NCBI GenBank assembly: GCA_944472155.2
Contig: OX235277.1
Location: 13,340,804-13,404,803, forward strand
Direction of reading: 5' to 3'
DNA from: Trichobilharzia szidati
Lineage: Eukaryota; Platyhelminthes; Trematoda; Strigeidida; Schistosomatidae
DNA: 64,000 nt
Within the stretch, counting starts at the first letter, position 1. Every line of letters starts with the position of its first letter. Under the pieces are notes generated by a model. It was not told the DNA's origin and made no database searches. It saw only the letters and a list, made by a program, of their open reading frames with translations. The translations under genes were made by a program, and so were the position numbers. This document shows positions 13,656 through 63,540 of the stretch, piece after piece.

Positions 13656-13689
13656 TTAGTAATAGTTACGTAATTAGATAAGGGAAGAT

Positions 13690-22770: not shown

Positions 22771-22799
22771 AGGAGCACTTTTGAATTGCACATGTCTAA

Positions 22800-29770: not shown

Positions 29771-29799
29771 ACTTTTGAATTGTACATGTCTAACAATGT

Positions 29800-32830: not shown

Positions 32831-34139
32831 CTAGCTTCACAATTAATTCAACCACATAAACACATTAATTCATCATATAAACAACTCTTGTTTTCTTAAG
32901 CCTCATTAACAATCGCCTTTTTATTCATTAAATCGTTTGCAACATTGTTGGTTTGCAATTACTCTCATATACACACCCATATGTATAGTATTTGATCTTT
33001 CTATTCATCCTGAGCAGTGTGTAAACAAAATCTCATATTGTCAAATGGAATTCAAGTTGACTTTGAAATGAGACTATATTCCACACTACCGAGTAGAGTT
33101 AGACAATACAAAGCTCTTTTCACACTTTAATAACAATAAGTATAATATTAATAGTTATCAGTTCTGTAAACAGACGAGACACAAATTTTTCTCTGTTTAG
33201 AGCCATCTATTTATGAATTAAGATGAGAGACAGGGATTAGATGCTTCATGCATATGTCAAAACAACGCGAGATAATTAATTAACTAGACTACTAGTGATA
33301 AAAATAGTAGTATTCGGATAAATAATAATGAGCACTTCGAGTATAGTCTTGACGACACTGTGTTAACGAATTCACTTAATAAATTAAGGTTAGATTTCTT
33401 ATGGATATTTGATTAATAAGTACTGTTTCGACGTATCAGCTGAATGTGTATTCTTATGCATTCAACTATTAATTATATAATGATATATTCTCAGAAATGT
33501 TGGTTTGTTTCATTGACTGGTGCCATATTGTGCCAGGCTTTGTGTTACACTTAAATCAAGTAAAAATCACCGTATATTTTATTATTCATCACACTCATTG
33601 TCTATTGTTCAGCCGATTTCAGTGATCGCCATCATTTATTGACGAATTTCTGAACTCATTCTCAAGATCTAACTACATTGGATAAATGATATATTTCTTT
33701 ATTTTAATTCAATAACATGTGTATAACTGTAAAATGTCTCAAATTTCATACCATTTTCAACTGAATTCCACATCAATTTCAACAACTGCCTGCCATTTTG
33801 TAGACACAAAATGCCATTTGAACTTCGTTAACTCCGTGTGTGTGTGAAATGAAGCCGTGTGAAACACTGGCACATAGAGAAAATCAAAACAGGTGATTCA
33901 GTGGAGAGACTCATCCCAACAACGAATTTATTATCAAGCTGTACAATCGCAAATATATATGGTTGTTTTTTTAAGAAATTATATCCGGTGAGCGAACTGA
34001 ATCTACGGTGTGAATGCACAAAATAATAATAGTATGGAAGGTGATTAAAATATTTGTGATTAAAATCACACTTAAATGTCAAGTAGCAAAACAGTTAATG
34101 TCATATATAGAATAATTCATAGCATGCATAGAACTTGGA
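32831..34139. repeat. Macro-unit body with landmarks L1 and L2, unit 2
   Basis: Equivalent to 25821-27125. No gene recognised. Confidence 0.7.
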
Positions 34140-34860
34140 AGGGATGTGCAGGAGAATTAGCTTGACTAATATGGTATCCAAATTTCTGGGCTCAATAATC
34201 ATGAGTAGACTAAGTGGTGCTCGGGAGGAGCAGACACAAGAGAACCAGGCAGGCTTTACACCATGGAGAGGGTGTATTGATCATATCTCCACCCTTCGAC
34301 AGATTCTGGAACACAGGCATACTTACCGGCGTCTAACAATCATCACATTTCTTAACCTGAAAGCGGCATTTGATTCCGTCGACTGACAGGTACTATGGCA
34401 ATGTTTCGCCGTGAATTGAATGCCAAGAAAGTGCATCGCGCTGATCAAGGCACTGTACTCGAACTCATGCAGCCAGCCACATGAGAGCCTACGGAGAGTT
34501 GTTATCTAAAATTGTGACAACCTGTGATGTCCGTCAGGGATGCCCAATGTCCTCATTTCTGTTTAGTCAAATCATAGATATACTTATGGACTTAATCCTA
34601 AGTGACTTCAGCAACTCAGGAATTGACTTGTTACCAGGGAAGAATCTCGTTGACTTGGAGTATGCGGATGGTATAATCCTACTGGGTGAAAACGCTGACA
34701 AAATGCAGAGTCTTCTGAACACCTTGAGCAGAAATCGTCTAGTGTTTGGCGTGCGATCTTCTCCTGGCAAATGTAAAATGATACTACAGGACTGGACTAC
34801 ATCGACTAACTCCTAGCTTAAGATAAGGAGTGAAGTGATATAGTGTGTCGACCACTTCAC
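34140..34860 (+). pseudogene. RTE-A fragment, plus strand
   Basis: CRRISLTNMVSKFLGSII, ENQAGFTPWRGCIDHISTL, FLNLKAAFDSVD (RT motif A, about 34350-34383), then in other frames IALIKALYS, DVRQGCPMSSFLFSQIIDIL and VDLEYADGIILLGENADKMQ. The catalytic box reads YADG. This copy lies in the segment private to unit 2 and is more diverged from the two minus copies than they are from each other. Confidence 0.85.
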
Positions 34861-38079: not shown

Positions 38080-40681
38080 TTCCATACCACTTTCACAGGA
38101 ATATTCCGTCACAGAAGCATATTCATTTATTACTTCTCAGAAACTTTTGTTTATTATGAATAAATCTGACTACAAATTATCCCGTTATAACTGTTCATTC
38201 ATCAAATCATTTCCATCATCATTGCATGTTCACTCTCGTATTATACATATATATATGGCGTGTGCTACTGAAATGTTTTTCAGTAATATATTTAGAGACG
38301 CTCGTAGGCACAACAATATTAAATAGTGGAGAGATAGATTTGACAACACCGAGAGAAAATGAACTGTCAGTATGGCTGGGAAACATCGGAGACACAGAAA
38401 GAAGACAAAGAAACACATATTGAAAGAATGGCAGAAGTATGGTCACATAGAAGATCTGTGCAAACGGCGACTTTCGTAGAAGTGGATTATAACTTCCTTA
38501 TATGTGTAAATCAAGTCCCTAATGTATCATTTCCGTGCCGCGATGCTGGGACCTAACCGAGACGCGTTAGTATTGGCTGGGAAGCTGATGTAATTAATTC
38601 GTCATGCACTCCTCCGTTCATCGAAAGTGTTCCAGACCACACTTTTCAGCAACCACACACCTAGTTAATACCGCGAAACCCACAGGCATAACTGAGCTAC
38701 CAAAACGAGGCACTGGAGGAAACACTGTCCAAGAATTTGGAGCAGGCAAAGCAATAAACGATACAATTTGTCTTCGTTTCCTGTGATAAGACTGGAAGTA
38801 ATAGGGGTGAACGATTTCTTCTAATAATAAATACATAAGGTTGTATTTGGCTGGATGAGAGACCGTTTAACATACGGGATGGCATTATTTAAACGCATAA
38901 CTGTTAATTATACTTGAAATCTTTGAAATGTGATGATATTATGCCCATCCTGTAAGGGACAAGGCGAAACACTTCAACAAATCATCACACCGACTTTCAA
39001 ATTATTATCGATGATTTATCATATTGGTGGTAATTAGACGATTGATGTTGTCTCTCAGTCGAGGATAACTAGACATTTTGGTCTTAACTTACGTAACCAA
39101 AAGATGAGTCGTTATCGTTAGCTTTCCAAGCTTTCACGACTCCCACACAGTCCACTGTCTTACGTGAACACTGGGAACTACCTGAATAAACTTCTTCGAC
39201 ACAGATATTACGGCTTCACATTTCGGGCAGTGGAAATATGTGGAAACATTCATATAAATTGACCTATGCAGTGACACCGACTGTCTCCTTAAAATATTTT
39301 CAAAAATTATTCGAAGATATTCATGCCTTACAGTTATTTCATTCAGCTAAACATGTCAACCATCCACCACAACTCATCGAGTTCTGGTAGATAGCCCACT
39401 CGTCATCTTCTGTTTTTGTTGTTGTTGTTATCATGTAGAATTGTCCTCCACAACGATCATAAATTCACCAATATCTCAGTCGGCCAAAATAACAGTCTCC
39501 TTCGACTCACTACTTGACGCAGCTAAAAAGATTCCAATAAATGAAATCGTCTCAGTCAGCTGTCTTTCGATTATATTAGGCCGTGTCCGACTAAGCTGTC
39601 AGCTATACATCTGAAATATTCAATTATTCAATTGGTGGAATTCATGGGTTGGCCATTGAATCGGGCTAGTTCCCAGTGGCTGAATGGTATACGAGCTTGC
39701 CTTGCAACCGGAAGGTCCTGGGTTCGAAATCTGACAGTGGGTGCATACTACCGACGATTCTCTAATTAGGACGAAACAGCTGTCCAGTACTCCTTGGTTT
39801 TCAATGGTTCTCTAACTGATATCAATCCGTGATCAACTAGTAAAAACTAAGTCTTTTATTAATGTTCAAATTTTACTTTTAAGATGATGGTAAGTGAGAT
39901 AATGGCAGAATAAAGGAAAATTCAACTGACAATCCAATGTACTTGTGTTTTCATCAGATGAGCTCAGGTCACACCTTCTTCATCTACAAACACACAGATC
40001 ACTTCTTATGATAAATTCCCGTTGGAACAGGGACCGAATGTGTGTTTATTCTTATATATATCGAAGTATATCGAAGAAATATTCCCAGAAATATCCGTAT
40101 GTTTCATTGACAACGACCGACTATTTATGGTTGAATCTGATCTTATCTTTAGTTATTCTTTAAGTCCATTCACCATCGGTATCTTCATGCCGAACACAGG
40201 GCTTCAGTAATACCTGTCGCTTGAATTCTTGATATTGCTTGAGTTGGTTGGTTGGTTCGACTGAACCGCGAACCCTGTGATCGCACTTTGGAATTCCTGA
40301 TATTTGTGTCAGAAGAAAAGTAGTAAAGAGTAGAATCAAATAATGTGAAGTGAATATCACATTCTCTATTGTAGGTAGTTGTCATTTTACTGATATCTTC
40401 TGCCTACTTGTAAGAATTATCAGTAGTGCAATATACAATTTTCAATGTTTTCGAACACTCATGTATACATATTGATTTTACGGCGGTCTTCTAGTTGGTG
40501 AATATATTTCCTTCAACTGATTGATCTTCGTTCGATTAGCTTCCTCACCTCAGCGCTCTTCGCATAGTCTTATTTTGTTTGTTTCATTTTCAACAGACCT
40601 TATAAAATATGAAGTCCTATATGAGGACGACACTTCATCCATCGTATTAGTTCTTTATTCATAACGAATTTATTTTGATTT
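38080..40681. repeat. Macro-block Q/R, copy 1
   Basis: Matches 51570-54430 over its length, apart from a SINE-C insertion in the second copy. 40310-40681 is also repeated at 59930-60290. Start of Q (38.86-39.0 kb) resembles 63.40-63.50 kb. No gene recognised; short open frames such as 38604-38786 are not convincing. Contains an S2 SINE. Confidence 0.8.
39660..39850 (+). repeat. S2 SINE with decayed hammerhead
   Basis: A box TGGCTGAATGG (39677-39687), B box GGTTCGAAATC (39721-39731). Hammerhead remnant at 39745-39790: core CCGACGA, GGAC-GAAA kept, palindromic ACAGCTGT and cleavage GTC kept, CAGTAC kept. Tail ends GATCAACTAGTAAAAA. The same insertion is in the second copy of the block. Confidence 0.8.
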
Positions 40682-40880: not shown

Positions 40881-43482
40881 AACGGAATTCATAACTCATA
40901 CAAAAACCAACCTAACGAGTACACTGTACATAAAACTGTTGAGGCTAATATGAAGAAGGAAATATGAAAGACGATCGAAATTACCCGCCGAATATGTACC
41001 TTCCAAAAGCTTCAATATACATTTTTGACATTATCGTCACTTCAGGCAGGATTCGAATAATGTGTTGATAAATCAGACTATGTAGTATCACTGCCATGCA
41101 AACTATTGTAAAACTGGATGAGTGAGGAAGAATGATGCTGATTAATCCCTAACAGTTCAATACTGCCGGGCATCGGAACATGTCACATCAAATGATTCTT
41201 ATTTGTGACATTTTCAAAGCTTGTGTATCAATACTTTTACTAATTATTTCTTATGTTCTAAATAATGTTAGTCTGCGTAGGATGTAGATTATTCCTCTCA
41301 CTCCTGAAGCAGCACTATGTTAAATTGATGATCACTTATGGGATGAAGTATCGTGTTATCTATCTCAAAATTTGGGAATAAATCATTCTTGCGGCAGAAT
41401 TAAACATCTTGTGCCTATGAATATGTTTCCGTATCAAATTTGAAGTTGTAAAGAGATGATGAGAATCAGAAAAGCGTTATTGCAAATCTTGATATTATTC
41501 TCCCCAATCACTGCTAAACATATCACAGTTAAATTCATTATTCGTTTACTTTTTCAGCTTGATATCGAGTTCTATTCACAATGGAAGTATAAGTCATGAA
41601 CGATTTCAAATGCACATACATTTTCACAGTTCCAAAGTTGACACAATTTTGTCTTAATGAAAACAGAATAAATTTGAGCGATTGCAACTTCTTAAAGTTC
41701 ATCAACAAGACTGACAATGTGTGACAAAATAAGCAAATGTTTGAGTTATGTATGAGTGATAATATTTAAGTAGGACGTCATAAAAAACTCTTAAAAAAGG
41801 GAAACAATTCAAATCCGTCTAAATTTCATCACGATCAGGTTACAGTGTTTCTAAATTTAATTAATTACAAGATATAAGCTAAGGAGAGAACACAATTATA
41901 CGTTCCTTAAGTTTACAGTGGTATAGTGAACTTTTCCGCACAGTGAATTCAGCGGTATTTTGATGAACGCTCACACGTCTACGGTACACTATTGCTGAAA
42001 ACTAACTACACCTACACCTTCCATCCTTCATTTGTAAATAATGTTCAAAGAGGACTTCTTGGAGCTGAGTACCTCTAGTTCCCTAGGTGCTCAAAATTTG
42101 AGCAAGTAATTTATGAATGTAAGTGTAGAAAACAGGAATGGGTAGGGTGGAGATTGATATTCCATATTAGAAAAGTTCAATTTAAATATAACACAGTCAC
42201 TGAGTGTAAATAACTAGATGATGCTGATGTGATCAATTTATTAATACCGCCTCACTGTGTGTTATGTCAACTGAACTTATCTAATATGTTCGAGTAATTC
42301 ACTTGTATTTGTCTCTTGATTACCACGTCGGATAACGTTCTATAACGCCTCCGGAAATTGTGCGATTTGTGGCGTTGGTCAACATAACTCAGAACTCATT
42401 GCACAAAATGGGCCCTTTTAATGTCTAATTCACAATTATCTGAAATTAATTCCCGGTTGATTCTTCCGTTTTTATTAGGCAATTCACTATTGTCACCTTT
42501 ATAGGTCCATTTCTTCCACCAATCTACCTTACTTCTGCCTACAAGCTCTTTACAATTGTCTGACGGGATACGTCATCGACACGCTTCAACTTAAAATTAA
42601 ATATCGAGTGCAGCTTAAGTGATTTAATTTCATTAATCTCAACGTATATGGTTTTCACTGTATTCGAAGATGCTGGTCACTGTGGCACAGACGTCAGTGA
42701 TTATACGACTGTGGAAATTCTTTTATTCCTTTACGTTCCCAGTGGAACATAGGGCTTCAACCTAGAAGCTTGAACTTTCTGTAGCAGTGGTGCTTATTTT
42801 CACGGGATTGGGTTGCTAGCCTCATGACCGACCTTCCTTCCTCACCAGTCTTATTACTGGTTTGGCAAGGTAAGTGAGTGCGTCCCCGGCAGAGGATCGA
42901 TCACCGAAACACATATGTGGTTGGCAACCACTGTGTTTATATCTGTAATTTATATTTTACTGTGGATATTTTACTGTGTATATTTATAGTCTTGTAAATG
43001 TGAATCAAACACAACCTTCACAGACAGCATCTAAAATAACCCAGTAAACGCTGACACAAAAAAGACGCCGGAGTGCGAATTTCGATTTACAGGTGGCTTC
43101 AATGGAAAGCCACCAGTAAATTTCCTTCACAGTAACCCATTTTGTACTTCATGAGGATAACTTCAACCCTCCTCATCACTGATTATATGTGAAATTCCAG
43201 TCGCTCAACATCAATCTTCAACATAAAATCTAAAGCAGTACTTCCTCTATAACTTTCATATGCCTAAAGTTGATTTATTCGAAAAGGCCAAGTAATCTTC
43301 ACTGTGATGAAGAGACTGAAGAGACTGCATTTTGATCCTCAAATCCAATTCCTTCAAGGAAGCAATCGGAGACGATGATGAAAGGATGTACGAGAACATT
43401 ATCACTTAAGTCAGCCTACATCTCACAAGTGAATCTTCCAATTATCATGTGAATGTAGATGGAAGAATGGAATGATAGCTAT
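40881..43482. repeat. Macro-block S, copy 1
   Basis: Matches 47490-50030 over most of its length; the 3' part also matches 56.99-57.79 kb. It contains a SINE-C (42722-42935) and landmark L4 (43385-43470). No gene recognised. Confidence 0.8.
42722..42935 (-). repeat. SINE-C, minus copy shared by three units
   Basis: On the minus strand the body GGTCATGAGGCTAGCAACCC runs to the end GAAGCCCTATGTTCCACTGG then GAACGTAAAGGAATAAAAG. The head B box is at about 42890-42900. The same insertion lies at 49280-49490 and 57180-57350 and is absent from 23.5 and 30.5 kb. Confidence 0.8.
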
Positions 43483-44289
43483 TATTATTATATTATTATT
43501 TCTTTTAATTCTTAGAGGAACATAGGGCTTCAGCCATGCGTCTCCATTGCGTTCGGTTCTCTGCTAGAGTCTTCACCTGGCTTCAAGTCTGCCCACACGT
43601 TTTCATCTCCTCTTCACATGAACTCCTCCAAGTCACCTAAACTCGCCACTTCCCTTGTCTAGTGATGTCACTTGATGGTTTTCTCAGAGTATGGCCAATC
43701 CATCTCCATTTCTTCCTGCCTATTTGTTTCACAATCGGTTCCTGGTTGGTTCGCTCATTGCCAGAGATCTCTGTTGCTGATCTTTTCTGACTGGCCATCT
43801 GATCTTGAGTATTGAGCGAAGACAACTGATAATGAAGGTCTGTAGTTTGTTTGAAGGGCTCTTTATGACGCGCCAAGTCTCTGATCCGCATTGTAAGTAG
43901 CACTGACTTCACATTGTATTTGAAAATCCAGATCTTATTTTTGATGTTGAGTGCTGTTGACCTCCACACAGACTTGAGAGTAATGAAAGCTTGTCTTACT
44001 TTTCCGATTCTTGCTTTGATATCCTCGTCAGTTCCTTCCGCCTGTAGTTGAAAAGATGCTTCCCAGGTAGGTAGGTAAAAGAGGTTGTTTCTTTCAGGTT
44101 CCTCCCATTTATGCTGATTGTTGTCTGTTGTTGTTGTTGCTGTTGGTGGTGTTGCCCAGGAATCTTCATCACCTCTGTTTTCTCTATGTTCACCTGAAGT
44201 GAAGTCCTATCTTTGATGCTTCTTCTGCCAACTTGTTGCTTTTCGCTTGCACATCTTCCAGTTTGTGGGAAATCAGACATATATCATTG
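43483..44289 (-). pseudogene. RTE-B insertion with short target duplication
   Basis: Minus-strand order: VNIEKTEVMKIPGQHHQQQQ (glutamine linker), INGRNLKETTSFTYLPG, RISKQESEK, WIFKYNVKSVLLTMRI, RHKEPFKQTTDLHYQLSSL, NQEPIVKQIGRKKWRWIGHT and LRKPSSDITRQGK, then the 3' end AGCCCTATGTTCCTCT and an AT tail. GCTAT flanks it on both sides (43478-43482, 44290-44294). It begins after the RT catalytic domain and has frameshifts. 58300 and 61435 show the uninterrupted site. Confidence 0.85.
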
Positions 44290-44790
44290 GCTATCAATAC
44301 CATGAAAACTATAGAATGCAATGCAAAGCAAAAATCGTATATCTTCTCCATGCAGTAGTAGTAGTAGTAATAGTTTCAATAACCATTTCACAGACATCTC
44401 CATCACAAGAAAACATTCATGCATTCTTCATAAACAAATCCTGTTGTATTTTCGAATTCATTAGCTTAGCTACGCCTAAAAATTACCTTATTATTATTAT
44501 TGTTCTTATTATTGTTTATTCATCAAAACATCATGTCAAGCATCATTGCTCTGCGATTCTTCTTATCCACATCATATCTTGCTTCATCCTGAGAATTGTG
44601 AAAACAAAATCTCATATGTTCAAATGGAAATCAAGATAAAAACAACATGAAAGTATATACCATACAACGAAGTAGAAAAACGAAATGCCTCGATGAACTA
44701 CAACAACAATAATGATAATAGTAAAAGTAACAACGAATTTTGTAAACAGAGGACACAAATTCGCATAATTTACGCCCTTCTCTCTAAAGA
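44290..44790. repeat. Landmark L1 segment
   Basis: Contains GCAATGCAAAGCAAAAATCG, a GTAGTAGTAGTA microsatellite (44355-44370, longer at 50956-51005) and L1 (44590-44780). Recurs at 50.87-51.43, 58.31-58.79 and 61.45-61.93 kb. Confidence 0.75.
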
Positions 44791-45995
44791 CAATATGCGA
44801 AATTTTTATTTCGCCTCCTGTGCACATTCATCACAAATCAACAAATGTGATATAAATATATTGATACGAGGAAAGAGTGTCTTCGAATATTCCTGATGAT
44901 ACTGTCTCAACTCGAATATGAATTAATTAAATTTGTGAGAAACTGGGAAATTGTGTTCACATGTATTTATCAATGGCAATCAGTACGTCCTGATGATTAA
45001 GGAACACGCTACATGATGGACAGATTCCGTCGTGATCCCAGATCAACGCGCGTGAACTGTGACAGAAACAGTAGTTCAACAATTCATTGCACACCACGGT
45101 GTACCAAGGAAGATACTGACAGATCACAGTCCTTGCTTTGTAATTGAAGAATGCACAACCTGTTTGCCGCTGATGAGTAACAGGTAAATCAGAACAAAAC
45201 CATACCTTCCAAAACGAATGGTTTGACTGACAGAGATAACCATACAATAAAGGATCGACTAGCCTCTAAGGGGACGGGGGGTAACTGAGGAACAAAGCTG
45301 CCATTGATTCTACTAGTGCATCTTGCGTCCACCCAGGAACAACAGGGAATTCACCATTCTAGCTGATGTATGACTAGAAACCACGACTAGCAATACACAG
45401 CACGACTGTTCCCTTCACCAAGACTGCAGTATGACAAGAATGGTAACGGAGTGGAAAGAAGCCTATGGAATGTAATCCGTAAACAGGATATGAGTACCGC
45501 CAAATGTGAGCACAGAGGAAAGATGAAATGCACAACGGTTGAATTAGACGATCAATTCAAGTCGAGACGAAGAAAGTAGACGATAAGATGCGGCCAGGTT
45601 CACGGAAACCCCTTCCGCAGTGGGAAGAATCATACACTGTCAACAACAGACGTGGTCCCATTTGTACCATCAAAAGACAGGAAAAAGTAAACGTGTTAAA
45701 ATCAGCCAACCGCCGAAATGGATGCAGTGGGATAAGAAAGCCGGGACCTAGACAACAACGATAGATCACATCTCCATAAAAATAAGATGCGAAATTGTTA
45801 TTTCGCCTCCTGTGCACATTCATCACAAATCAACAAATGGTGATCAATTAGACAACTAATAACAGCAATAGAAGTATTCCGATACGAGGAAAGTGTGTCT
45901 TCGAATATTCTTGATGATACCGCCTCAACTCGAATATGAATTAATTAATTAATTAATTGTGTGAGAAACTGGGAAATTGTGTTCACATTTCAATG
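44790..45995 (+). mobile_element. Gypsy-type pol end between direct repeats, copy 1
   Basis: A direct repeat of about 160-200 bp (44790-44965 and 45783-45995, containing GATACGAGGAAAG and CTCGAATATGAATTAATTAA) brackets an integrase relic. The repeats may be remnants of LTRs, ending ...TTGTGTTCACA. The same arrangement is at 58785-59905 and 61930-63115. Confidence 0.6.
45055..45780 (+). pseudogene. Gypsy-type integrase relic, copy 1
   Basis: ETVVQQFIAHHGVPRKILTD then HSPCFVIEE matches the integrase core HGVP..LxSDxGxxF, and RTKPYLPKRMV followed by LTE matches PYHPQxNGxxER. The D-to-E spacing is 36 residues, as expected for a DD35E-type core. Downstream, in other frames, SMTRMVTEWKEAYGM and KPLPQWEESYTVNNRRG resemble the region after integrase. 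Two in-frame stops (before IRTKPY and before LTE) are shared with both other copies. Integrase would join element DNA to the target; this one is dead. Confidence 0.75.
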
Positions 45996-46300
45996 AACAT
46001 GAGTATAATATTAAGAGTAGTTAATTCTGTCCATAGAACATTCACGAGTTTCCATAGTTTATAGTCATCTGTCTGTAGATTAGATGAGAAAGAGGGATTT
46101 CCTGTCTCGTCCACGTATACATCATCAAAGCAAACAGAGTTAATTAATTTTGACTACTGTGGACGAAAATGGAAGTACTTGGATAGGTAGTAATAAGCTC
46201 TTCGAACACAGTCGTGACGACAGACACTGTGTCAACGAATTCAACTCTCAAATGTAGGTTGGATTTCTTCTGATAAATATTGAAGTGTTCGCTTAGGCAC
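45996..46300. repeat. Landmark L2
   Basis: Segment with AGAGGGATTTCCTGTCTCGT and GACACTGTGTCAACGAATTC, matched at 63115-63400 and, more diverged, at 26.2 and 33.2 kb. Confidence 0.7.
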
Positions 46301-47489: not shown

Positions 47490-50039
47490 TGAAAAATACC
47501 TTCATACAATGCTAGACAAGGACACTAACAACTTATACAAAAACAGACCCTACGAGTTCGCTAGACGTAAAATTAGTAAGGCTGATATGAGGAGGGAAAT
47601 ACGAAAGAAGATCAAAATTACCCGCCATGTATTCATAATACATTTTCGACATTATCATCACTTCAGGCAGGATTTGAATAATGCTGGTTAATCTCTAACA
47701 TTTCAATACTGCCAGTCATCGGAACATGTCACATCAAATAATGTTTCTTATATATGACAGTTTCAAAGCTTTTGTATCAATACCCTTACTAATTACTTCA
47801 TATGTTCTAAATAGTTAGTCTGCGTAGGATGTAGATTAATTTTACCGCAAGAAGGATTGATTCTCACCGTCAAAACTGTCAAATTTTGTGATATATAACA
47901 CGCTACTTCATCCTATAAGCGATCATCAATTTAACATAGTGCTGCTTCAGGAGTGAAAGAAATAAACATCTTGTACCTTTGAACATTGTCTCATTTCTCA
48001 TTTGAAGTTGTAAAGAGCTGAGGAGAATCAGCATAGCGTTATTGCAAACCTTGTTATTATTCTACTTCATCCCTGCTCAACATATCACGGTTTATTCATT
48101 GTTCGTTTTCTTTTTCAGCTTGACATCGAGTTCTATTCACAATGGAACTATAAATCATGAACAATTTCAAATGCACATACATTTTCACAGTTCTAAAGTT
48201 GACACAGTTTTGTCTTCATGAAAACAGAATAAATTTGAGCGATTGTAATTTCCCAAAGATGTTCAACATGACTGACAATGTGTGACAAAATAAGCAAATG
48301 TTTGCCTAATGTATGAGTGATAATATTTAAGTAGTATGTCAAAAAACACTTGAAAAAGAGAAACAATTCAAATCCATCGAAATTTCATCACGATCAGGTT
48401 ACAGTGTTTCTAAATTTAATTAATTACAAGATATAACCTAAGAAGAGAACACAATTATACGTTCCTTAAGTTTATAGTGGTATAATGAACTATTCTGCAC
48501 AATGAATTCAGAGGTATTTTGATGAACGCTCACACGTCCACCATACACTATTACTGAACACTAACTAATTCTCCTGCACCTTCCATCCGTAATTTGTAAA
48601 TAATGCTCAAAGAGGACTTCGTGGAGTTGAGTACCTCCAGTTCACTGGATGCTCAAAATTTGAGCAACTAATACAAGAATGTAATTGTAGAACTCAGGAA
48701 TGAGTGGGGTGGAGATTGATATTCCATATCTATAAAGTTCATTTTAAATATAACACAGTCACTGAGTGTTAATAACGAGACGATTCTGATGTGATCCATT
48801 TATTAATATATCGCCTCAGTGTGTGTTATGTCAACTGAACTTATCTAATATGTTCGAGTAATTCACTTGTATTTGTCTCTTGATTACCATGTCGGATAAC
48901 GTTCTATAACGCCTCTGCAGAATTGTGCGATTTGTGGCGCTGGTCAACATAACTCAGAACTCATTGCACAAAATGGGCCCCTTCAATGTCTAATTCACAA
49001 TTATCTGAAATTAATTCCCGGTTGATTCTTCCATTTTTACTAAGCAATTCACTATTGTCACCTTTAATAGGTCCATTTTGTTCACCAATCTACGTTACTT
49101 CTGCTTACAAGCTCTTCAAAGTTGTCTCAGGGACACCTCACTGCCAGGCTTTAACTTGATATTAAATATCGAGTGAAGCATAAGTGATTCAATTTCACTA
49201 ACCTCAACATATGTAGTTTTCTACGTCTGGAAGATACTGGTCACTGTAGCATAGACTTCAGTGATTATACGACTGTGTAAATGTTTTTAATTCTTTTACG
49301 TTCCCAGTGGAACAAAGGGCTACAAGCTAGAAGCTTGAAGTTTCTGTAGCAGTGGTGCTTATTTTAACAAGATTAGTTTCCTAGCGCCATGACCAACTTT
49401 CCCTTCTTACCAGTCTTATAACTGGTTTGGCAAGGTTAGTGAGTGCGTCTATGACCGTGGATCGAACCCCGAAACACATATTTTATATTTTACTGTGGAT
49501 ATTTTACTCTGCATATTTATAGTCTTGTAAATGTGAATCAAACACGACTTTCACAGACACCATCTAAAATAACCCAGTATACGCCGATACACAGAAGATG
49601 CTAGAGTGCGAATTTCGATTTACAGCTGACTTCAATGGAAAGCCACCAGTAAATTTCCTCCGGAGTAACCCATTTCGTACTTCATGAGGATAACTTCAAC
49701 CACCCTCATCACTGATTGCATATGAAATTCCAGTCGCTTAACATCAATCTTCGACAAAAAATCTAAAGCAGTACTTCCTCTATAACTTTCATATGCCTAA
49801 CCTTGATATATTCAATTCACTCTGTTTTTGAAAAGGCCAAGTAATCTTCACTGTGATAAAGAGACTGAAGACGCGATATTTTCGTCCCAAAATCCAATTC
49901 CTTCAAGGAAGCAATCGGAGACGATGGTGCAAAGTTTTATGAGAACATCATCACTTAAATCAGCCTACATCTCACAAGTGAATCTACCAATTATCACGTT
50001 GATGTAGATGGAAGAATGGAATGATAGCTATTGTTATTA
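47490..50039. repeat. Macro-block S, copy 2
   Basis: Matches 40.9-43.48 kb. It carries the shared SINE-C (49280-49490, minus) and L4 (about 49935-50015). A 73-codon basic open frame at 47470-47691 (KISKADMRREIRKKIKI) lies at its left edge; the equivalent sequence near 40.93-41.05 kb is broken, so I do not call it a gene. Confidence 0.75.
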
Positions 50040-50870
50040 TATTATTATTTCTTTTAATTCCTAGAGAAATATAGGGCTTCAGCCGTGCGTCTCTATTGCG
50101 TTCGGTTCTCTGCTAGAGTCTTCATCTGACTGCAAGTCTGCCCACATGCTTTCATCTCCTCTTCACATGACCTCCTCCAAGTCACCCTTGCACTGACGAC
50201 CAACTCGCCACTTCCCTTTCGGGTTCCACTCGAGCAATGCCTTGTCTAGTGATGTCACTCACTTGATGGTTTCCTCAGAGTATGGCCTCCAATGCACCTC
50301 CATTTCTTCCTTCCTATTTGTTTCACAATCGGTTCCTGGTTGGTTCGCTCCAAGAGATCTCTATTGCTGATCTTTTCTGGCCATCTGATCTTGAGTATTG
50401 AGTGAAGACAACTGTTAATGAAGGTCTGTAGTTTGTTTGAGATGCTCTTCATGACGGGCAGTGCAAGTCTCTGATCCATATAGTAGCACTGACTGACTTC
50501 ACATTGGAGTTGAAAATCCGGATCTTATTTTCATTTTCGTGCTGAGTGCTGTTGACCTCCACACAGACTTGAGAGTAGTGAAAGCTTGTCTTGCTTTTCC
50601 GATTCTCGCTTTGATATCCTCCTCAGTTCCGTCCGCCTGTAGTTGAAACGATGCTTCCCAGGTGGGTGGGTAGGTAAAAGAGGTTGTTTCTTTCAGGTTC
50701 CTCCCATTTATGCTGATGGTGTCTGTTGATGTTGTTAGTGGTGGTGTTGTTGCCCAGGAATCTTCAACACCTCTGTTTTCTCTATGTTCACCTGAAGTGA
50801 AGTCCTATCTTTGATGCTTCTTCCCCTGCCTACTTTTAGCTTTTCGCTTGCACATCTTCCAGTTTGTGGG
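50040..50870 (-). pseudogene. RTE-B insertion, copy in second block
   Basis: Same element and same insertion site as 43483-44289. SISNKLQTFINSCLHSILKI, RWPEKISNRDLLERTNQEPI and KQIGRKKWRCIGG are readable on the minus strand (50479-50255). The 3' motif lies at about 50075-50085. It moved here by block duplication, not by a new insertion. Confidence 0.8.
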
Positions 50871-51569
50871 AAATCAGACATACATCATTGGCTATCCATA
50901 CCATGAAAACTATAGAATGCAATGCAAAGCAAAAATCGTATATCTTCTCCATGTAGTAGTAGCAGTAGTAGTAATAGTATTAGTAGTAAAAGTAGTAGTA
51001 GTAGTTTTAATAACCATTTCACAGACATCTCCATCACAAGAAAACATTCATACATTCACGATAAACAAATCCTAATGTATTTTCGAATTCATTAGCTTAG
51101 CCACGCCTAAAAATTACCTTATTATTGTTATTGTTCCTATTATTGTTTATTCATCAAAACATCATGTCAAGCATCATTGCTCTGCGATTCTTCTTATCCA
51201 CATCATATCTTGCTTCATCCTGAGAAGTGTGAAAACAAAATCTCATATGTTCAAATAGAAATCAAGATAAAAACAACATGAAGGTATATACCATACAAAG
51301 AAGTAGAAAAACGAAATGCCTCGATAAACTCCAAAAACAATAATGATAATAGTAAAAGTAAGAATAAATTCTGTAAACACAAAAAAAAATTCACCTTGTT
51401 TACACCCTTCTCTCTAAAGATAAGATGCGAAAGTTTTATCTCGACTTCTGTGCACATTCATCAAAAATCGACAAATGGTGATGAATTAAACAAGTAATAG
51501 CAGCAATAGAATTTTTTCGATACGAGGAAAGAGTGTCTTCAAATATTCTTGATGATACTGTCTCAAATC
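50871..51569. repeat. Landmark L1 and part of the integrase-flanking repeat
   Basis: L1 at 51230-51430 and one copy of the direct repeat at 51430-51569. The integrase relic is absent here and the repeat runs straight into block Q. Confidence 0.7.
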
Positions 51570-52825
51570 GAATATTCCTTCACAGAAGCATATTCACTTA
51601 TTATTACTCAGAAACTTTCGTTTATTACAAAGAAATCTGACTAAAAGTTATCCTGTAATAATTGTTTATTCGTCAAATCATTTTCATCATCATTGCCTGT
51701 TCACTCTCGTATTATACATATATATGTGGCGTATGCTACTGAAAGGTTTGTCAGCAGTATATTTACAGACGCTCATAGGCACAACAATATTAAATAGCGG
51801 AGAGATAGATTTGAAAACACCAAAAGAAAATGATCTGTCACTATTGCTGGGAAACATCCGAAACTCATAAAGAAGACAAAGAAACACATATTGAAAGAAT
51901 GGCAGAAGTATGGTCATACAGAAGATCTGTGCACATGACGACTTTCGTAGAAGTTGAATATAACTTCTCTATATGTTTATATCAAGTCCCTAATGCATCA
52001 TTTCCGTGCGGCGATGCTGGGACCTAACCGAGACGCATTAGTGTTGGCTGGGAAGCTGATGTAATTAATTCGTCATGCACTCCCCCGTTCATCGAAAGTG
52101 TTCCAGATCAAATTGATCAGCAACCACACACCTAGTTAATGCCTCACAACCCACAGGCATTGCTGAGCTAGCAAAACGAGGCACTGGAGGAAACACTGTC
52201 CGAGAATTCGGAACAGTCAAAACCATAAACGACACAATTTGTCTTCGTTTCCTGTGATAAGTCTGGAAATAATAGGGGCCAGCCATTTCTTCTGATGATA
52301 AAATAAATAAGGTGGTATTTGGCTGGATGAGAGACCGTTTAAAATACAGGATGGTATTATTTAAACGTGTTAATCTGCATCATACTTGAAATCTTTGAAA
52401 TGTGATGATATTATGCCCATCCTGTAAAGGACAAGGCGACTTCACTTCAACATATCATCACAACGACCTTCAACATTATTATCGATGATTCATCACATTA
52501 GTGGTAATTAAACGGATTGATTTTGTCTCTCAGTCGAGGATAACTAAGCATTTTGGTGTCAACTCACGTAACCAATAAACGAGTCGTTATCGTTAGATTT
52601 CCAAGCTTCCACGATTCCCGCACAGTCCACTGTTATATTCTCAATATGTCACTGTGTTACATAAACACCGGGAACTATCTACATATTACAGCTTCACATT
52701 TTGGGCAGTGGAAATACATTTAACATCTATATAAATTGATCTATACAGAGACACCAACTGTCTCCTTTAAATATCTTCAAAATTTTTCGAAGATAATCAT
52801 GTCTTACTGTTATTTCATTCAACTA

Positions 52826-53100: not shown

Positions 53101-53444
53101 ATCATTCATATGATATCCTGTCAACCGTCCACCACAACTCATCGTGTACAAGGTAATAATGAGTTCTGGTAGATAGGCCACTTGTCATCTTCTGTTGTTG
53201 TGGTTGTTATCATGTGGAATTGTCCTCCACAACGATCATAAATTTACCAATATCTTAGCTGGCCAAAATAACAGCCTCCTTCGACTCAATACTTGACAGA
53301 GCTAAAAAGATTCCAATAAATGAAGTCGTCTCATTCAGCTGTCTCTCGATTATATAAGGCCGTGTCCGACTAAGTTGTCAGCGATACATCTGAAATATTG
53401 AACTCGTCGTTTGGTAGAAGTCAGAATTCATGATATGGCCATTA

Positions 53445-53635
53445 AATCGGGTCCCAGTGGCTGATAGGTATACGAGCTTGCCTTGTAACCGGAAGGTCCT
53501 GAGTTCAAAACCTGGCAGTGGGTGCGTACTGCCGATGATTCCCAAACTAGGCTGATGAAACAGCTGTCCAGTACTCCCTGTTGGTTCTCAATGGTTCTCT
53601 AACTGATATCAATCCGTGATCAACTCGTAAAAATT
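53445..53635 (+). repeat. S2 SINE, second block copy
   Basis: Same insertion as 39660-39850. The hammerhead remnant at 53526-53574 has GTACTG/CAGTAC helix I intact, core CCGATGA, a 3-bp insertion before GAAA, and ACAGCTGTC intact. Confidence 0.8.
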
Positions 53636-56569: not shown

Positions 56570-57803
56570 TTTTTATTCACTACTCTGTCACCTCAACATC
56601 CAGCAGACAGTCGTCCACTTCTATCACTGTGTACTTTATTCATCACACTAATTTCTCGTTGTTCAGTCGACTTCGTTGGTCAAGATCACTTATTTCTCCA
56701 ACATTTAAATCCATTCTAAGAAGATCTGATTACTTTGGATCGGTGATGAATTGGTTTATTCTAATTCAATAATATGTAGCGAAAATATTCATTCAGACAT
56801 CTATAAAACACAAAATGATTGAGCAAAGAATATCGTTTTCGATAATTTCCTCTACTGGCTCCACAATTATATGTATATGTTTATATACATAGGATATTCT
56901 AGATTGATATTCAATAATAGTATTAATGTATTTTAAATATTATCGATTTGTCAATTAAGATCATTGGAAATACAGTTCATTAAAGATGCTTAAATTATTT
57001 TAATAACATTATTGTCACATTTATAGGCTCGTTTCATTCACTAATCTACGTTACTTCTGTCTACAGGCTCTTCACAACTGCCTGAGGGATACTTCATCGC
57101 CACGCTTTAACTTAAAATTAAAACTAAAATACTGCTCAATGCGCAGTAGACTTCAGTGGTTATACGACTGTGTAAATATTTCAAGCTAGAAGCTTGAAGT
57201 TTCTGTAGCAATGGTGTTTATTTTTACGGGATGGAGTTGCTAGCCTCATGACCAACCTTCCCTTCTTACCAGGCTTATTACTGGTTTGGTAAGGTTAGTG
57301 AGTGCGTCTGTGGCCGTGCATCGAACCCCGAAACACATACGTGGTTGGCAAGCACTGTGTGTATATTTATACTTGATATTTTACTGTGTATATTTATAGT
57401 CTTGTAAATGTGAATCAAACATAACTTTCACAAATAACCTAGTATACGCCGATACACAAAAGACGCTAGAGTGCGAATTTCGATTTACAGCTGGCTTCAA
57501 TGGAAGGCCAACAGTAAATTTCCTTCAGAGTAACCCATTTTGTACTTCGTGAGGATAAATTCAACCATCCTCATCACTGATTGCATGTGAAATTCCAGTC
57601 CCTCAACATCAATCTTCGACATCAAAATCTAAAGCACGACATCCTTTTTAACTTTCATATGACTAACCTTGAGATATTCAATTCAATATGTTTTCCATAA
57701 AGTTCACGTAATCTTCACTGTGATGAAGAGACTAAAGAGACTGCATTTTAGTCCACAAACCCGAATCCTTCAAGAAAGCAATCAAAGACGATGATGAAAA
57801 GAT
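56570..57803. repeat. Macro-unit segment with shared SINE-C
   Basis: 56620-56790 resembles 26.57-26.72 kb. 56.99-57.80 kb matches 42.48-43.39 kb. SINE-C (minus) at 57180-57350 lies at the same position as in blocks S. Confidence 0.7.
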
Positions 57804-57874
57804 GTATGAGAACATTGCATCGAGGATTTCATCGTAAGCTGGCATCAGTTAGAGAACCACTGGAAAACCTGCGA

Positions 57875-57921
57875 GTAGTGCACAGCTGTTTCGTCCTCGT
57901 TTTTGGACTCTTCAGCAGTAC
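57875..57921 (-). ncRNA. S2 hammerhead with intact core, cleavage base changed
   Basis: GUACUG (57921-57916), core CUGAAGA (57915-57909), helix II GUCC/GGAC, GAAA (57892-57889), palindromic ACAGCUGU. The triplet reads GUG instead of GUC; G at position 17 does not support cleavage. Helix I partner CACUAC pairs at five of six. Confidence 0.75.
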
Positions 57922-58068
57922 GCACCCACCGCCAGGGTTCGAACCAAGGTCGTTCTGGTCACAAGGCAACCTCGTAGACAATTGAGTCACTGGGATCCGA
58001 TACAATGATCCTTTAATTGCAGCTCGACTTGTAACCAGAAGGTCCTGGTTTCGAACCCGAGTGGATGC

Positions 58069-58114
58069 GCACTGATGAAGAGCCCCAAACGAGGACGAAA
58101 CAGCTGTGTAGTAC
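58069..58114 (+). ncRNA. S2 hammerhead, plus arm, decayed
   Basis: GCACTG then ATGAAGA (C3 changed to A), CCCC/GAGGAC helix II region, GAAA at 58097-58100, palindromic ACAGCTGT, triplet GTG, TAGTAC. Probably inactive. Confidence 0.6.
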
Positions 58115-58222
58115 TCCCAGGTTTTCCAGTGGTTCTCTAACTGATGTTGGCTGCTAATGAAATCCTCCATGCAATCAAACAAAAGTCCTTACAAAACCAA
58201 TACTTGAAAAGTATGAGAACAT

Positions 58223-58784
58223 CATCACTTACATCAGCACACACCTCACAAGTGAATCTTCCACTTATCATGTGAATGTAGATGGAATAATACAATGATA
58301 GCTATCAATGTCATAAAAACTATAGAATGCAATGCAAAGCAAAAATCGTATATCATCTCCATGTAGTAGTTTTATTAACCATTTCACAGACATCTCCATC
58401 ACAAGAAAACATTCATGCATTCACGATAAACAAATCCTAATGTATTTTCGAATTCATTAGCTTAGCCACGCCTAAAAATTACCTTATTATTGTTATTGTT
58501 CCTATTATTGTTTATTCATCAAAACATCATGTCAAGCATCATTGCTCTGCGATTCTTCTTATCCACATCATTTCTTGCTTCATCCTGAGAAGTGTGAAAA
58601 CAAAATCGCGTATGTTCAAATGGAAATCAAGATAAAAACAACATGAAAGTATATACCATACAACGAAGTACAGAAATGAAATGGCTCGATGAACTACAAC
58701 AATAATGATAATAGTAAAAGTAACAATGAATTCTGTAAACACAAGACACAAATTCGCATTGTTTACGCTCCTCTCTCTAAAGAT
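58223..58784. repeat. L4 and L1 without RTE-B (uninterrupted site)
   Basis: L4 (58210-58285) is followed after GATAGCTATCAA (58297-58308) directly by the sequence that lies beyond RTE-B at 44.29 kb, then by L1 (58590-58785). Confidence 0.8.
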
Positions 58785-59905
58785 AAGATGCGAAAGTTTT
58801 ATCTCGACTTCTGTGCACATTCATCACAAATCAAAAAATGATACGAGGAAGGAGTGTCTTCGAATATTCTTGATAAGACTTTCTCAACTCGAATATAAAT
58901 TAATTAATTGATTAATTGTGTGAGAAACTGAGAAATTGTTTTCACATCTATCTATCTATCTATGGTAATCAGTATCTCCTGGTGATGATAGAACACGCTG
59001 CGTGATGGACAGATACCTTCGTGATCCTGGATCAACGCGCGTTAAATGTAAGGGAAACAGTAGTTCCACAAGTAGTTGCAGACCACTGTGCACCAAGGAA
59101 GATACTGACAGATCACAGTCCTTGCTTTGTAACTGAAGAATGCACAACCTGTTTGCCACTGCTGAGTAACAGGTAAATCAGAACAAAACCATACCTTCCA
59201 AAACGAATGGTTTGACTGGCAGAGACAACCATACAAAAAAGGAGTGACTCTCCTCTAAGGGGACGGGGTAACTGAGGAACAATGCGGCCATTGATTCTTC
59301 TAGTCCATCTTGCGTCCAACCAGGGACGACAGGGAATTCAACATTCTAGCTGATGTATGAGAGGAAACCACGACTAGCAATACACAGCCCGACTGTTCCA
59401 TTCACCAAGACTGCAGTATGACAAGAATGGGAATGGAGCGGAAAGAAGCTCATGGAACATAAACCGTAAACAGGATATGAGTACCGCCAAATGTGAGCAG
59501 AGAGGAAAGATGAAATGCACAACGGTTGAATTAGATGATCAATTCAAGTCGAGACGAAGAAAGTAGACGATGAGATGCGGGCCAGGTTCAGGGAAACCCC
59601 TTCCGTAGTGGGAAGAAGCATACACTGTCAACAAGAGACGTGGTAACATTTGTACCATCAAAAGTTAGGAAAAAGGAAACACGTTAAAATCAGCCGACCG
59701 CAGAAGTGCATGCAGGGGGATAAGAAAGCCGGGACCAAGACGACAACGATAGATAACATCTTAATAAAGATAAGATGCGAAGTTGTTATTTCACCTCCTG
59801 TGCACATTCATCACAAATCAACAAATCATGACTAATTAGACAACTAATGACAGCAACAGAAGTATTCCGATACGAGGAAAGCGTGTCTTCGAATATTTTT
59901 GATGA
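58785..59905 (+). mobile_element. Gypsy-type pol end between direct repeats, copy 2
   Basis: Integrase relic with ETVVPQVVADHCAPRKILTD then HSPCFVTEE (about 59055-59140) and RTKPYLPKRMV, with the same two stops as copy 1. Flanking repeat halves at 58785-58950 and 59768-59905. A TCTA tetranucleotide run at 58947-58963 replaces GTATTTATCA of copy 1. Confidence 0.7.
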
Positions 59906-59929
59906 TACTGTCTGTCAGAATTAAAGTAG

Positions 59930-60659: not shown

Positions 60660-61212
60660 TATACATCCACCAATCAACTTCTAGTTACATGACCAGAAAT
60701 CGTCGGAGCATCTACACAAAAGCCAACATGTCAACCTGAGACCGAACACTTCGGTTCAATCAATCGACAGGGTAAATCTAAAATTCAATTAAGTAATTAA
60801 TATGACCCGTTGCACAAGAGGTGGTGACTCTCGTGGCCCAAGTAGTTTGGTGGATAACGCTTTGGAGTTTGAAACTATGGGCACTGGGTTCGAGCCCTAG
60901 TGGGAAAGTTATTATGGTTGTAATTATTAAGTCTGACAACTTTAATGTTCATTTATGAAAATTTAACGCCTCCTTATGAAGACAAGTAAATACGTGAAAC
61001 GACTCAACAAACCTTGACTGGCTTTCCTTATTTAGTTTACTCAAATGTACTTAGAGTAAAGAACTTCAACGTATATAGAGACCTGTACACTACCCCCATT
61101 ATATAGACACACAGCATCAGTTAGCTAAAATCTCTGCATCTGTATACTTCTAACTGTCAATCATATCCGAAATAGTTAGAATCAGTTCCATTAAATCTAA
61201 ATTTATGTGTTC
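60660..61212 (+). repeat. SMα-like SINE block S1, third copy
   Basis: Tail (60666-60800) joined to a tRNA-like head with B box GGTTCGAGCCC (60888-60898), followed by the 300-bp extension that also occurs reversed at 2958-3262. The hammerhead-bearing start is truncated. Confidence 0.8.
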
Positions 61213-61350
61213 AGATGAAGAGCCCCAAACGAGGACGAAACAGCCGTCCAGTACTCTCAGGTTTTCCAGTGGTTCTCTAACTGATGTCAGCTCATGATAT
61301 AATCCTCCATGCAATCAAATAAAGTCCCTACAAAATCAATACGTTAAGAG
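61211..61350 (+). repeat. Right arm of an S2 dimer, truncated
   Basis: CAGATGAAGAGCCCC, GAGGAC-GAAA, CAGCCGTC (cleavage C at 61248) and CAGTAC, then the complete tail and ATGAGAACATCATCACTT. It corresponds to the plus arm at 58069-58222 and was copied with its surroundings; its left part is replaced by the S1 block. Confidence 0.75.
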
Positions 61351-61929
61351 AATGAGAACATCATCACTTAAATCAGCCCACATCTCAAAAGTGAATCTTC
61401 CAATTTTCATGTGGATGTAGATGCAAGAATACAACGATGGCTATCAATCCCATGAAAACCAAAGAATGCAATACAAAGCAAAAGTCGTATATCTTCTCCA
61501 TATAGTAGTACTAGTAGGTTTAATAACCATTTCACAGACATCTCCATCACAAGAAAACATTCATGCATTCACGATAAACAAATCCTAATGTATTTTCGAA
61601 TTCATTAGCTTAGCCACGCCTAAAAATTACCTTATTATTGTTATTGTTCCTATTATTGTTTATTCATCAAAACATCATGTCAAGCATCATTGCTCTGCGA
61701 TTCTTCTTATCCACATCATATCTTGCTTCATCCTGAGAATTGTGAAAACAAAATCTCATATGTTCAAATAGAAATCAAGATAAAAACAACATGAAAGTAT
61801 ATACCATACAACGAAGTAGAACAACGAACTGCCTGGATAAACTCCAAAATAAATAATGCTAATAATAGTAACAACACATTCTGCAAACAAAAGACACAAA
61901 TTTGCACTGTTTACACCCTTCTCTCTAAA
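61351..61929. repeat. L4 and L1, last unit
   Basis: L4 at 61350-61425, uninterrupted RTE-B site GATGGCTATCAATCCC at about 61436, L1 at 61740-61925. No gene. Confidence 0.75.
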
Positions 61930-63115
61930 GATTAGATGCGGAAAATTTATCTCGACTTCTGTGCACATTCATCACAAATCAAAAAATGATACGAGGAAGG
62001 AGTGTCTTCGAATATTCTTGATAAGACTTTCTCAACTCGAATATAAATTAATTAATTGATTAATTGTGTGAGAAACTGAGAAATTGTTTTCACATCTATC
62101 TATCTATCTATGGCAATCAGTACCTCCTAGTGATGATGGAACACGCTATGTGATGGACAGATGCCGTCGTGATCTCGGATCAACGCGCGTGACCTGTGAC
62201 GGAAACAGTAGTCCGACAAATCGTTGCAGACCACGGTGTACCACGGACAATACTGACAGTTCACAGTCCTTTCTTTGTAACATAAGAATGCACAACCTGT
62301 TTGCAACTGCTGAGTAACAGGTAAATCAGAACAAAACCATACCTTCCAAAACGAATGGTTTGACTGACGGAGATTACCATACACTAAAGGAGTTACTGGC
62401 CTCTAAGGGGGAGTAATTGAGGAACAAATCTTCCATTGATTCTACTAGTGCATCTTGCGTCCAACAGGGACGACAGGGAATTCACCATTCTAGCTGGTGT
62501 GTGAGAAGGAACCACGACTAGCAATACACAACACGACTGTTCCCTTTACCAAGACTGCAGTATGACAAGAATGGTAACGGAGTGGAAAGAAGCCTATGGA
62601 ATGTAATCCGTAAACAGGATATGAGTACCACCAAATGTGAGCAGACAGGATAGATGAAATTCACAAGGGTTGAATTAGACGATCAATTAAAGTGGAGACG
62701 AAGGAAGTACACTATAAGATGCGAGCCAGGTTCACGGAATCCCATTCCGCAGTGGGAAGAATCATAAACTGTCAACAACAGACGTGGTCCCATTTGTACC
62801 ATCAAAAGACAGGAAGAAAGAAACGCCTTAAAATCAGCCAACCACAGAAATGGATGTAGTGAGATAAGAAAGCCGGGACCTAGACAACAACGATAGGTCA
62901 CATCTCCAATAAAATAAGATGCGAAATTGCTATTTCGACTTCTGTGCACGCCCATAACAAATCAAAAAATGATGACTAATTAGACAACTAATGACAGCAA
63001 CAGAAGTATTCCGATACGAGGAAAGAGTGTCTTCGAATATTCTTGATGATACTTTCTCAACTCGAATATGAATTAATTAGTTAATTGTGTGAGAAACTGG
63101 GAAATTGTGTTCACA
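61930..63115 (+). mobile_element. Gypsy-type pol end between direct repeats, copy 3
   Basis: ETVVRQIVADHGVPRTILTV then HSPFFVT, RTKPYLPKRMV and LTE at about 62200-62365, with the two shared stops plus one of its own. The Asp of the TD motif is changed to Val. Flanking repeats at 61930-62098 and 62925-63115. Confidence 0.7.
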
Positions 63116-63540
63116 TTTCAATGAACATGAGTTGAATATTAACAGTAGTAAATTCAGTCCATAGAACATTCACGAGTTTCCATAGTTTATAGTCATCTGT
63201 CTGTAGATTAGATGAGAAAGAGGGATTTCCTGTCTCGTCCATGTACACATCATCAAAACAAACAGAGATAATTAATTTTGACTATTAGTGACGAAAATGG
63301 AAGTACTTGGATAGGTAGTAATAAGCTCTTCGAACACAGTCGTGACGACAGACACTGTGTTAACGAATTCATCTAATGAATGTAGGTTCGATTTCTTCTG
63401 ATGGTATATGGTGGGTTGAGAATCCGTCTAAAGTGCACGGACGTATTATTTACACATGGAATTGAATAACACCTTTAATATCTGAAATGTCAGAGTATCA
63501 TGGCCATACATACATACATACATACAACAAAGCGAATTCA
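63116..63540. repeat. Landmark L2 and start of block Q
   Basis: 63116-63400 matches 45.99-46.29 kb; 63400-63500 matches the segment near 38.86-38.95 kb. A CATA microsatellite lies at 63508-63528. Confidence 0.65.

Follow-up and report, generated by a model that had tools for sequence, protein, structure and literature searches.

A 395-bp insertion in the genome of Trichobilharzia szidati is made up of two copies of a short repeat unit, here called S2, which stand head to head within a single target site duplication, and it was probably produced by one two-sided, target-primed integration of a non-autonomous tRNA-box hammerhead SINE by Penelope-type machinery. The insertion was one event, the element has an inner and an outer 3' stop, and this dimer and a second one in the same stretch of DNA originated separately. 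From the scar left behind we infer the enzyme, priming on both target strands, and a template that was either a pair of RNAs or a single circular or multimeric one. All counts of pairs and insertions refer to the window, that is, the whole 64-kb stretch that was analysed. The features of the 58-kb locus and its relatives are as follows.

57804–57815: left target site duplication GTATGAGAACAT, exact 12-bp match to 58211–58222
57816–58007, reverse strand: left arm, S2 unit inverted, with the longer 5' head (from alignments; inner limit approximate)
57875–57921, reverse strand: type I hammerhead ribozyme motif of the left arm (RF00163, 35.8 bits; gathering score 34)
57936–57945, reverse strand: B box GGTTCGAACC of the tRNA-like head, left arm (pattern scan)
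58008–58210, forward strand: right arm, S2 unit direct, with a shorter 5' head and the complete 3' tail (from alignments; inner limit approximate)
58069–58114, forward strand: decayed type I hammerhead motif of the right arm (RF00163, 29.8 bits, short of the 34 needed for gathering)
58174–58210, forward strand: A+C-rich tail extension of 37 nt, right arm only (76% A+C; left-arm end fixed by the duplication)
58211–58222: right target site duplication, exact 12-bp match to 57804–57815
43388–43399, forward strand: empty site in a paralogous block (one-mismatch match, block alignment)
49937–49948, forward strand: empty site in a paralogous block (one-mismatch match, block alignment)
61214–61349, forward strand: right-arm copy in a segmental duplicate, broken in the hammerhead core (block alignment)

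A search of the 64-kb window finds GTATGAGAACAT exactly at the two positions that bound the insert (57816–58210) and, with one mismatch, at three more (43388, 49937 and 61350). The perfect 12-bp duplication around a 395-bp inverted S2 pair, with which the preliminary description began, is therefore borne out. A blastn self-comparison returns 57814–58175 as a single match between inverted repeats (77.5% across 369 columns when gaps are included), and a repeat search gives arms of 89 nt that are 88% complementary. An exact 12-mer repeat at a spacing of 407 occurs in just one place among 63,579 positions of the window, and flanks of the same size placed at random reached 12 bp once in 3,000 trials, the 58-kb locus itself having been left in the sampling. 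The paralogous blocks at 42756–43482 and 49323–50031 align unbroken across the insertion point, as had been claimed for them, and their empty sites, GTACGAGAACAT at 43388 and TTATGAGAACAT at 49937, each differ from GTATGAGAACAT by one substitution. A third block, 61214–63057, derives from the filled locus, of which it retains the right arm and right duplication only, so that the 58-kb insertion appears to be older than that segmental duplication. When an inner duplication was sought around either arm alone, no repeat longer than 6 bp was found in the stretches searched.

The empty sites come from a set of four related segmental blocks (41130–46274, 47676–51575, 57180–59913 and 61214–63402), which are about 9–11% apart by substitutions where measured over at least 597 sites. 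The last of these begins, at 61214, within the right-arm hammerhead core and lies directly against a copy of another repeat family, S3, as if the break lay between two ribozyme-bearing repeats.

As judged from its sequence, each arm of the 58-kb pair is a tRNA-box SINE that includes a type I hammerhead motif, which the preliminary description had overlooked. The order within the unit is A box, B box, hammerhead, 61–65 nt, inner 3' stop, 34–37 nt of 76% A+C, outer 3' stop. The left arm ends 37 nt short of the 3' end of the right arm (35 if a 2-nt microhomology is counted), in keeping with the earlier description of an inverted 5' arm cut in its tail. The accompanying claim of a complete 3' arm holds for the tail of the right arm and fails for its head, which is shorter than that of the left arm (match starts on the 53-kb monomer listed below at 53475 and 53440, respectively, so that the left arm reaches 35 nt further into the head). 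The inner limit of the left arm is 58007 by comparison with the 53-kb monomer and up to 58024 by the 15-kb monomer, and the right arm matches other S2 copies securely from 58021, the 13 bases at 58008–58020 being assigned to neither. No ORF of at least 120 codons is present in the insert. The right-arm copy at 61 kb scores 31.5 bits against RF00163 (61209–61254), again below gathering. The ribozyme cut position reads GTG in both 58-kb arms and GTC in this 61-kb copy; the shared GTG may reflect arm-to-arm conversion or coincidence.

The tRNA likeness of the heads of these hammerhead SINEs is confined to the level of the boxes, because no Rfam tRNA match at E ≤ 10 was obtained in 57816–58210 or in 1720–2150, the latter covering a pair from another family described below (the miRNA matches in 1720–2150 all lie below their gathering scores and were disregarded). 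An exact B box occurs in the left arms of both S2 pairs and in neither the 58-kb right arm nor the three S2 monomers; the A box occurs in all three monomers and in none of the S2 arms, and both boxes are exact in no single S2 copy. By the same pattern scan, both boxes are present in both arms of the pair at 1.7–2.1 kb and in S3. The single copies of S2 are these.

53440–53632, forward strand: single S2 copy whose 3' homology end is that of the 7-kb left arm (homology to the 7-kb right arm, compared with its flanks, breaks off at 7258/53632 and 7258/39845)
15280–15461, forward strand: decayed single copy of S2 from which the 5' part of the hammerhead is missing (from alignments)

A further copy, at about 39671–39845, sits in a segmental duplicate of the 53-kb monomer region. 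None of the 39-, 53- and 15-kb monomers has a convincing duplication, the S2 tail matches no other repeat in the window, and self-comparison reveals no direct tandem of S2 there.

Self-comparison identifies four close head-to-head pairs of hammerhead SINEs in the window (1747–2120, about 2951–4010, 6978–7292 and 57816–58210), which belong to separate sequence families, namely S2, S3 and the family at 1.7–2.1 kb. The three pairs other than that at 58 kb have the following features.

6978–7292: second S2 head-to-head pair, left arm inverted and right arm direct, with the same anatomy as the 58-kb pair
6967–6979: left duplication of the 7-kb pair, CTATAAATATG(TT), 13 bp with one mismatch to 7293–7305
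7293–7305: right duplication of the 7-kb pair, CTATAAATGTG(TT), 13 bp with one mismatch to 6967–6979
4069–4081, reverse strand: empty site of the 7-kb pair, CTATAAATATATG, in an inverted paralogous block (alignment)
1747–2120: a different tRNA-box hammerhead SINE, paired head to head; its two ribozymes score 46.7 and 39.2 bits, each above gathering
2951–4010: S3 head-to-head arrangement with a 330-nt period; hammerhead at 3844–3888 (47.1 bits)

A duplication together with an empty site is confirmed for two of the four, 6978–7292 and 57816–58210. The duplication of the former can alternatively be read as 21 bp with three mismatches (6959/7285), which moves the right limit of the pair from 7292 to 7284. 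For 1747–2120 and 2951–4010 no convincing duplication was found. The recurrence of an inverted pair within a single duplication, which had been claimed earlier for three cases, thus stands for two of the window's four pairs and not for the other two. S3 shows some further peculiarities: a copy reads through head to tail with a period of 330 nt (3608–3679 against 3938–4009; the family lies at 2951–4010 and 60664–61215), its left arm runs on into an unrelated stretch of about 300 nt that is common to two loci, and its arms begin at different points of the S3 unit.

Comparison of the four S2 arms bears directly on how the pairs were formed. At 7 kb, as at 58 kb, the left arm reaches further into the head than the right, by 55 nt (53461 against 53516 on the 53-kb monomer). 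Both clean pairs therefore have reciprocal unique ends, with head sequence found only on the left and tail found only on the right, and it follows that neither arm is a plain copy of the other. Among 111 sites common to the four arms, 15 group them by dimer, one by side and none crosswise, and a 3-nt insertion is common to both 7-kb arms. A maximum-likelihood tree, built on an alignment in which this insertion is misplaced, likewise unites the two 7-kb arms (97/92) and the two 58-kb arms with the 61-kb copy (98/96). The central junctions of the two pairs also differ. The preliminary description had taken the inverted dimer to be a recurrent mobilised form and had proposed that arm divergence be compared within and between dimers; the grouping of arms by dimer, together with the differing junctions, indicates instead that each pair was most likely made anew, from a single unit or one source type, and speaks against the dimer as the form that moves. 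Conversion between arms after insertion would produce the same dimer-wise grouping.

Measured downstream from the hammerhead cut position, the 3' stops lie at 65 and 102 nt in the 58-kb pair and at 61 and 95 nt in the 7-kb pair, giving tail offsets of 37 and 34 nt (26 nt for the latter if its duplication is read as 21 bp); the extra right-arm tails are 76% A+C. The independent insertion represented by the 39/53-kb monomer loses homology exactly at the inner 3' stop, the copies being very few overall. Inspection by eye shows that, where the left arms adjoin the duplication, 2 nt at 58 kb and 4 nt at 7 kb could pair with the target strand, and that the centre of the 7-kb pair was possibly joined through 3 nt, CAG. 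Given the boundaries adopted, both right arms end in GAAAA beside the duplication.

A Penelope-type reading is preferred because the pairs resemble the integration products of EN+ Penelope-like elements in the orientation of the copies, in having two 3' stops separated by about 35 nt and in their duplication. A Penelope-type reverse transcriptase with a GIY-YIG endonuclease would cut the two target strands with a stagger of about 12 nt, and each strand would then prime cDNA on S2 RNA from its newly freed 3' end. For the right arm, the primer would start at the outer 3' stop of the RNA, and for the left arm about 35 nt further in, aided by 2–4 nt of pairing. The two cDNAs would extend toward the 5' head and be joined head to head, possibly via a 3-nt overlap in the 7-kb pair, and filling of the stagger would give rise to the target duplication. 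The purified Penelope protein of Anolis does cut and extend both target strands, and its cDNA synthesis begins inside the RNA at either of two neighbouring sites, most frequently within an AC-rich stem-loop; the interval separating these starts forms an optional genomic 'tail' of 30–40 bp, a feature described as unique to Penelope-like elements (PMC11167929). The S2 pairs display this style of integration in their head-to-head copies within one duplication and in two discrete 3' stops separated by a tail of 30–40 nt. Some observations count against the reading. In the Anolis assay reverse transcription begins alike on both strands (PMC11167929), so that a left arm from the inner stop beside a right arm from the outer stop is not predicted. 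Moreover, only two pairs have both a duplication and an empty site, and the 7-kb offset may shrink from 34 to 26 nt. The 3' region of S2, although rich in A+C, folds more weakly than the shuffle mean in all four stretches folded (z +0.6 to +1.7), with no special fold predicted.

The closest parallels are found among EN+ elements of the Penelope/Poseidon type, such as Pen2a_Av of Adineta vaga, which share head-to-head inverted repeats with the S2 pairs. The available account describes an Adineta insert with a 9-bp TSD, in which an inverted pLTR lies beside a direct one and is 37 bp shorter than full length, at an end that is not specified, and states that head to head is the commonest inverted arrangement (PMC3846280). 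This shortening compares with the S2 offsets of 37 nt at 58 kb and 34 or 26 nt at 7 kb, and Penelope duplications are put there at 8–10 bp (PMC3846280), those of the S2 pairs measuring 12 and 11–21 bp. Other Penelope elements carry a hammerhead at the pLTR, much as S2 carries a hammerhead motif. S2 itself, in contrast, does not code for protein (neither a reverse transcriptase nor a GIY-YIG ORF) and has no recognisable pLTR sequence; it carries A and B boxes of the tRNA type, and its sequence gives no match to Penelope. A derivation of S2 from a Penelope pLTR was considered and is not supported, the translations of its 3' region being unlike 13 protein starts inspected by eye. The 3' regions of S2, S3 and the 1.7-kb family showed no similarity to Penelope N-terminal coding sequence among these 13 starts (8 of which begin MGIF or MGFF and look like genuine N-termini), a comparison that is weak because no full-length Trichobilharzia N-terminus was among them.

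SMalpha of Schistosoma, which has a tRNA-like promoter, resembles S2 in having a type I hammerhead in a SINE-like element, a likeness of architecture. We take the S2 unit to have this SMalpha/retrozyme architecture; S2 contains the hammerhead within the unit and the A and B boxes at box level. The hammerheads of other schistosome satellites share the very short stem III (PMC8490949), and in the literature on SMalpha, as far as the accessible text extends, no description of head-to-head pairs with one duplication was found. Metazoan non-LTR retrozymes have in common with S2 a type I hammerhead, the lack of an ORF and a suspected dependence on Penelope (PMC7229834). They are described as direct tandem repeats, whereas the close pairs of S2 are inverted; a direct tandem is seen in part in S3.

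Elements that could have supplied an enzyme are present in the window, which is rich in retroelements.

13317–14511, forward strand: 5'-truncated Penelope-like element with inverted pLTRs; GIY-YIG-like C-terminal coding fragment at 13700–13975

The coding fragment, which lies between the pLTRs, is 43% identical over 98 columns to a reverse transcriptase protein of Schistosoma spindalis and 40% to one of T. szidati; against a protein of T. regenti named for GIY-YIG it reaches 43% in 100 columns. The best match of an ORF at 4964–5638 on the forward strand is from T. szidati (71% over 97%), and its last 55 residues are 82% identical to a GIY-YIG domain-containing protein of T. regenti. Pfam finds no GIY-YIG domain in the Penelope-like fragments, which we take to be such from the reverse transcriptase matches, the GIY-YIG-named relative and characteristic motifs. 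The pLTRs at 13.3 kb are 85.7% alike over their main stretch and have no clear tail offset, no secure duplication was found for this copy, and the S2 arms do not match its pLTRs. Putative hammerhead cores of the form CTGATGA...GAAA lie in the pLTRs at 13367–13385 (reverse strand) and 14441–14460 (forward strand). Rfam does not score them, a silence that would fit the minimal variants reported for Penelope hammerheads in PMC7761336; the core pattern occurs 18 times in the window against 7.2 expected by chance. A further Penelope-like endonuclease fragment lies at 27295–27964, with such a core 230 nt downstream (27944–27964), the pattern alone being weak evidence. LINE-type reverse transcriptase fragments are also present, and the elements are presumably RTE-like. 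The three best matches of an ORF at 31741–32520 on the reverse strand all come from Trichobilharzia (78% identity to T. regenti at 97% query coverage, and 88% to T. szidati at 77%). A 4.8-kb direct duplication (22362–27125 and 29356–34150, 92% identity) contains LINE-type fragments. Phages yielded no relatives, and neither did viral contigs, searched by DNA pattern and with Penelope protein, or genome contigs, searched with LINE protein.

The resident LINE-type fragments raise the question of whether an RTE-like LINE mobilised the SINE, the pair being a twin-priming variant or the result of the LINE reverse transcriptase switching from one RNA template to another. LINE twin priming, too, typically leaves long duplications and shows microhomology at either end, and 639 of 2,068 recent L1 insertions (30.9%) are 5'-inverted (PMC2912911). 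L1 5' inversions indeed resemble the S2 pairs in two-sided priming, microhomology and a single duplication. In these, however, one RNA is split between the arms, whereas the S2 pairs carry the 3' part in both; the earlier objection that twin priming on one linear RNA does not fit is upheld, since single integrations carry the same tail region twice. Short RNAs mobilised in trans seldom invert, in 1 of 5,554 cases for Alu and 4 of 477 for SVA (PMC2912911). Four independent S2 insertions are recognised in the window (the 58-kb pair, the 7-kb pair, the 39/53-kb monomer and the 15-kb monomer), two inverted and two single, and the chance of at least two inverted among four would be 2e-7 at the Alu rate, 4e-4 at the SVA rate and 0.36 at the L1 rate; primate rates and a small sample picked for its pairs make this comparison an indication only. 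The reported exclusiveness of the two-start tail to Penelope-like elements and the lack of a match between the S2 tail and any other repeat in the window also argue against a LINE, and such an origin is distinctly unlikely.

A different question is what the two primers copied. The preliminary description favoured a switch between two RNAs or a dimeric or circular template, and of these two RNAs are compatible with two target-primed cDNAs from two cut strands. That both primers instead used a hammerhead-processed circular or head-to-tail multimeric RNA, which is a variant of the Penelope-type integration and not its opposite, is fairly unlikely. A single RNA is possible at 7 kb, where the arms differ at 2 of 113 sites. 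At 58 kb the arms differ at 18 of 144 sites (12.5%), not clearly more than the flanking duplicates of the locus (159 of 1,597 sites, 10.0%, and 69 of 606, 11.4%), and one and two template RNAs are therefore not separated. The hammerhead motif in each arm could give circles, retrozymes form circles in animals (PMC7229834), and S3 reads through head to tail. That read-through is confined to S3, however, no S2 arm crossing a tail–head junction; the 7-kb arms have a changed core, CCGATGA, and the 58-kb arms have GTG in place of GTC at the cut position, though this may be later decay. Insertion by the Anolis protein in vitro is, moreover, independent of ribozyme cleavage (PMC11167929). The near equality of arm and flank divergence at 58 kb would also allow arms that started out identical, as in a snap-back of the first cDNA onto itself to be copied into the second arm, and self-priming on an antisense template has been proposed for Penelope (PMC3846280); the reciprocal unique ends contradict this in both clean pairs and make it very improbable. 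S2 is repeated in the region, which might suggest two separate, adjacent insertions, a reading of negligible probability given the one outer duplication, the two empty sites, the lack of an inner duplication above 6 bp in the stretches searched and the same layout seen twice.

The pattern of Penelope integration has been described before, and what is new here is a hammerhead SINE with Penelope-like two-sided integration; a literature search, to which most subscription journals were closed, found no earlier report of head-to-head hammerhead SINE pairs. Cervera and de la Pena (2020, PMC7229834) already regard Penelope-like elements as a strong candidate for the mover of animal hammerhead retroelements, given that the two co-occur, form tandem copies and have ribozymes in common. 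Being short and clean, the S2 pairs can also constrain how Penelope itself integrates, in that a plain snap-back, akin to the self-priming proposed for Penelope palindromes, is excluded at two loci. More broadly, the balance tips slightly towards hammerhead SINEs of the SMalpha/retrozyme class being Penelope-dependent parasites that integrate by two-sided priming from two adjacent RNA starts, the head-to-head pair with its offset of about 35 nt being the scar. Such a scar is seldom left by LINE-moved SINEs but is left by Penelope copies, which would make the question of the enzyme testable by counting. If the dependence on Penelope is true, the scar would point to the missing enzyme of animal retrozymes.
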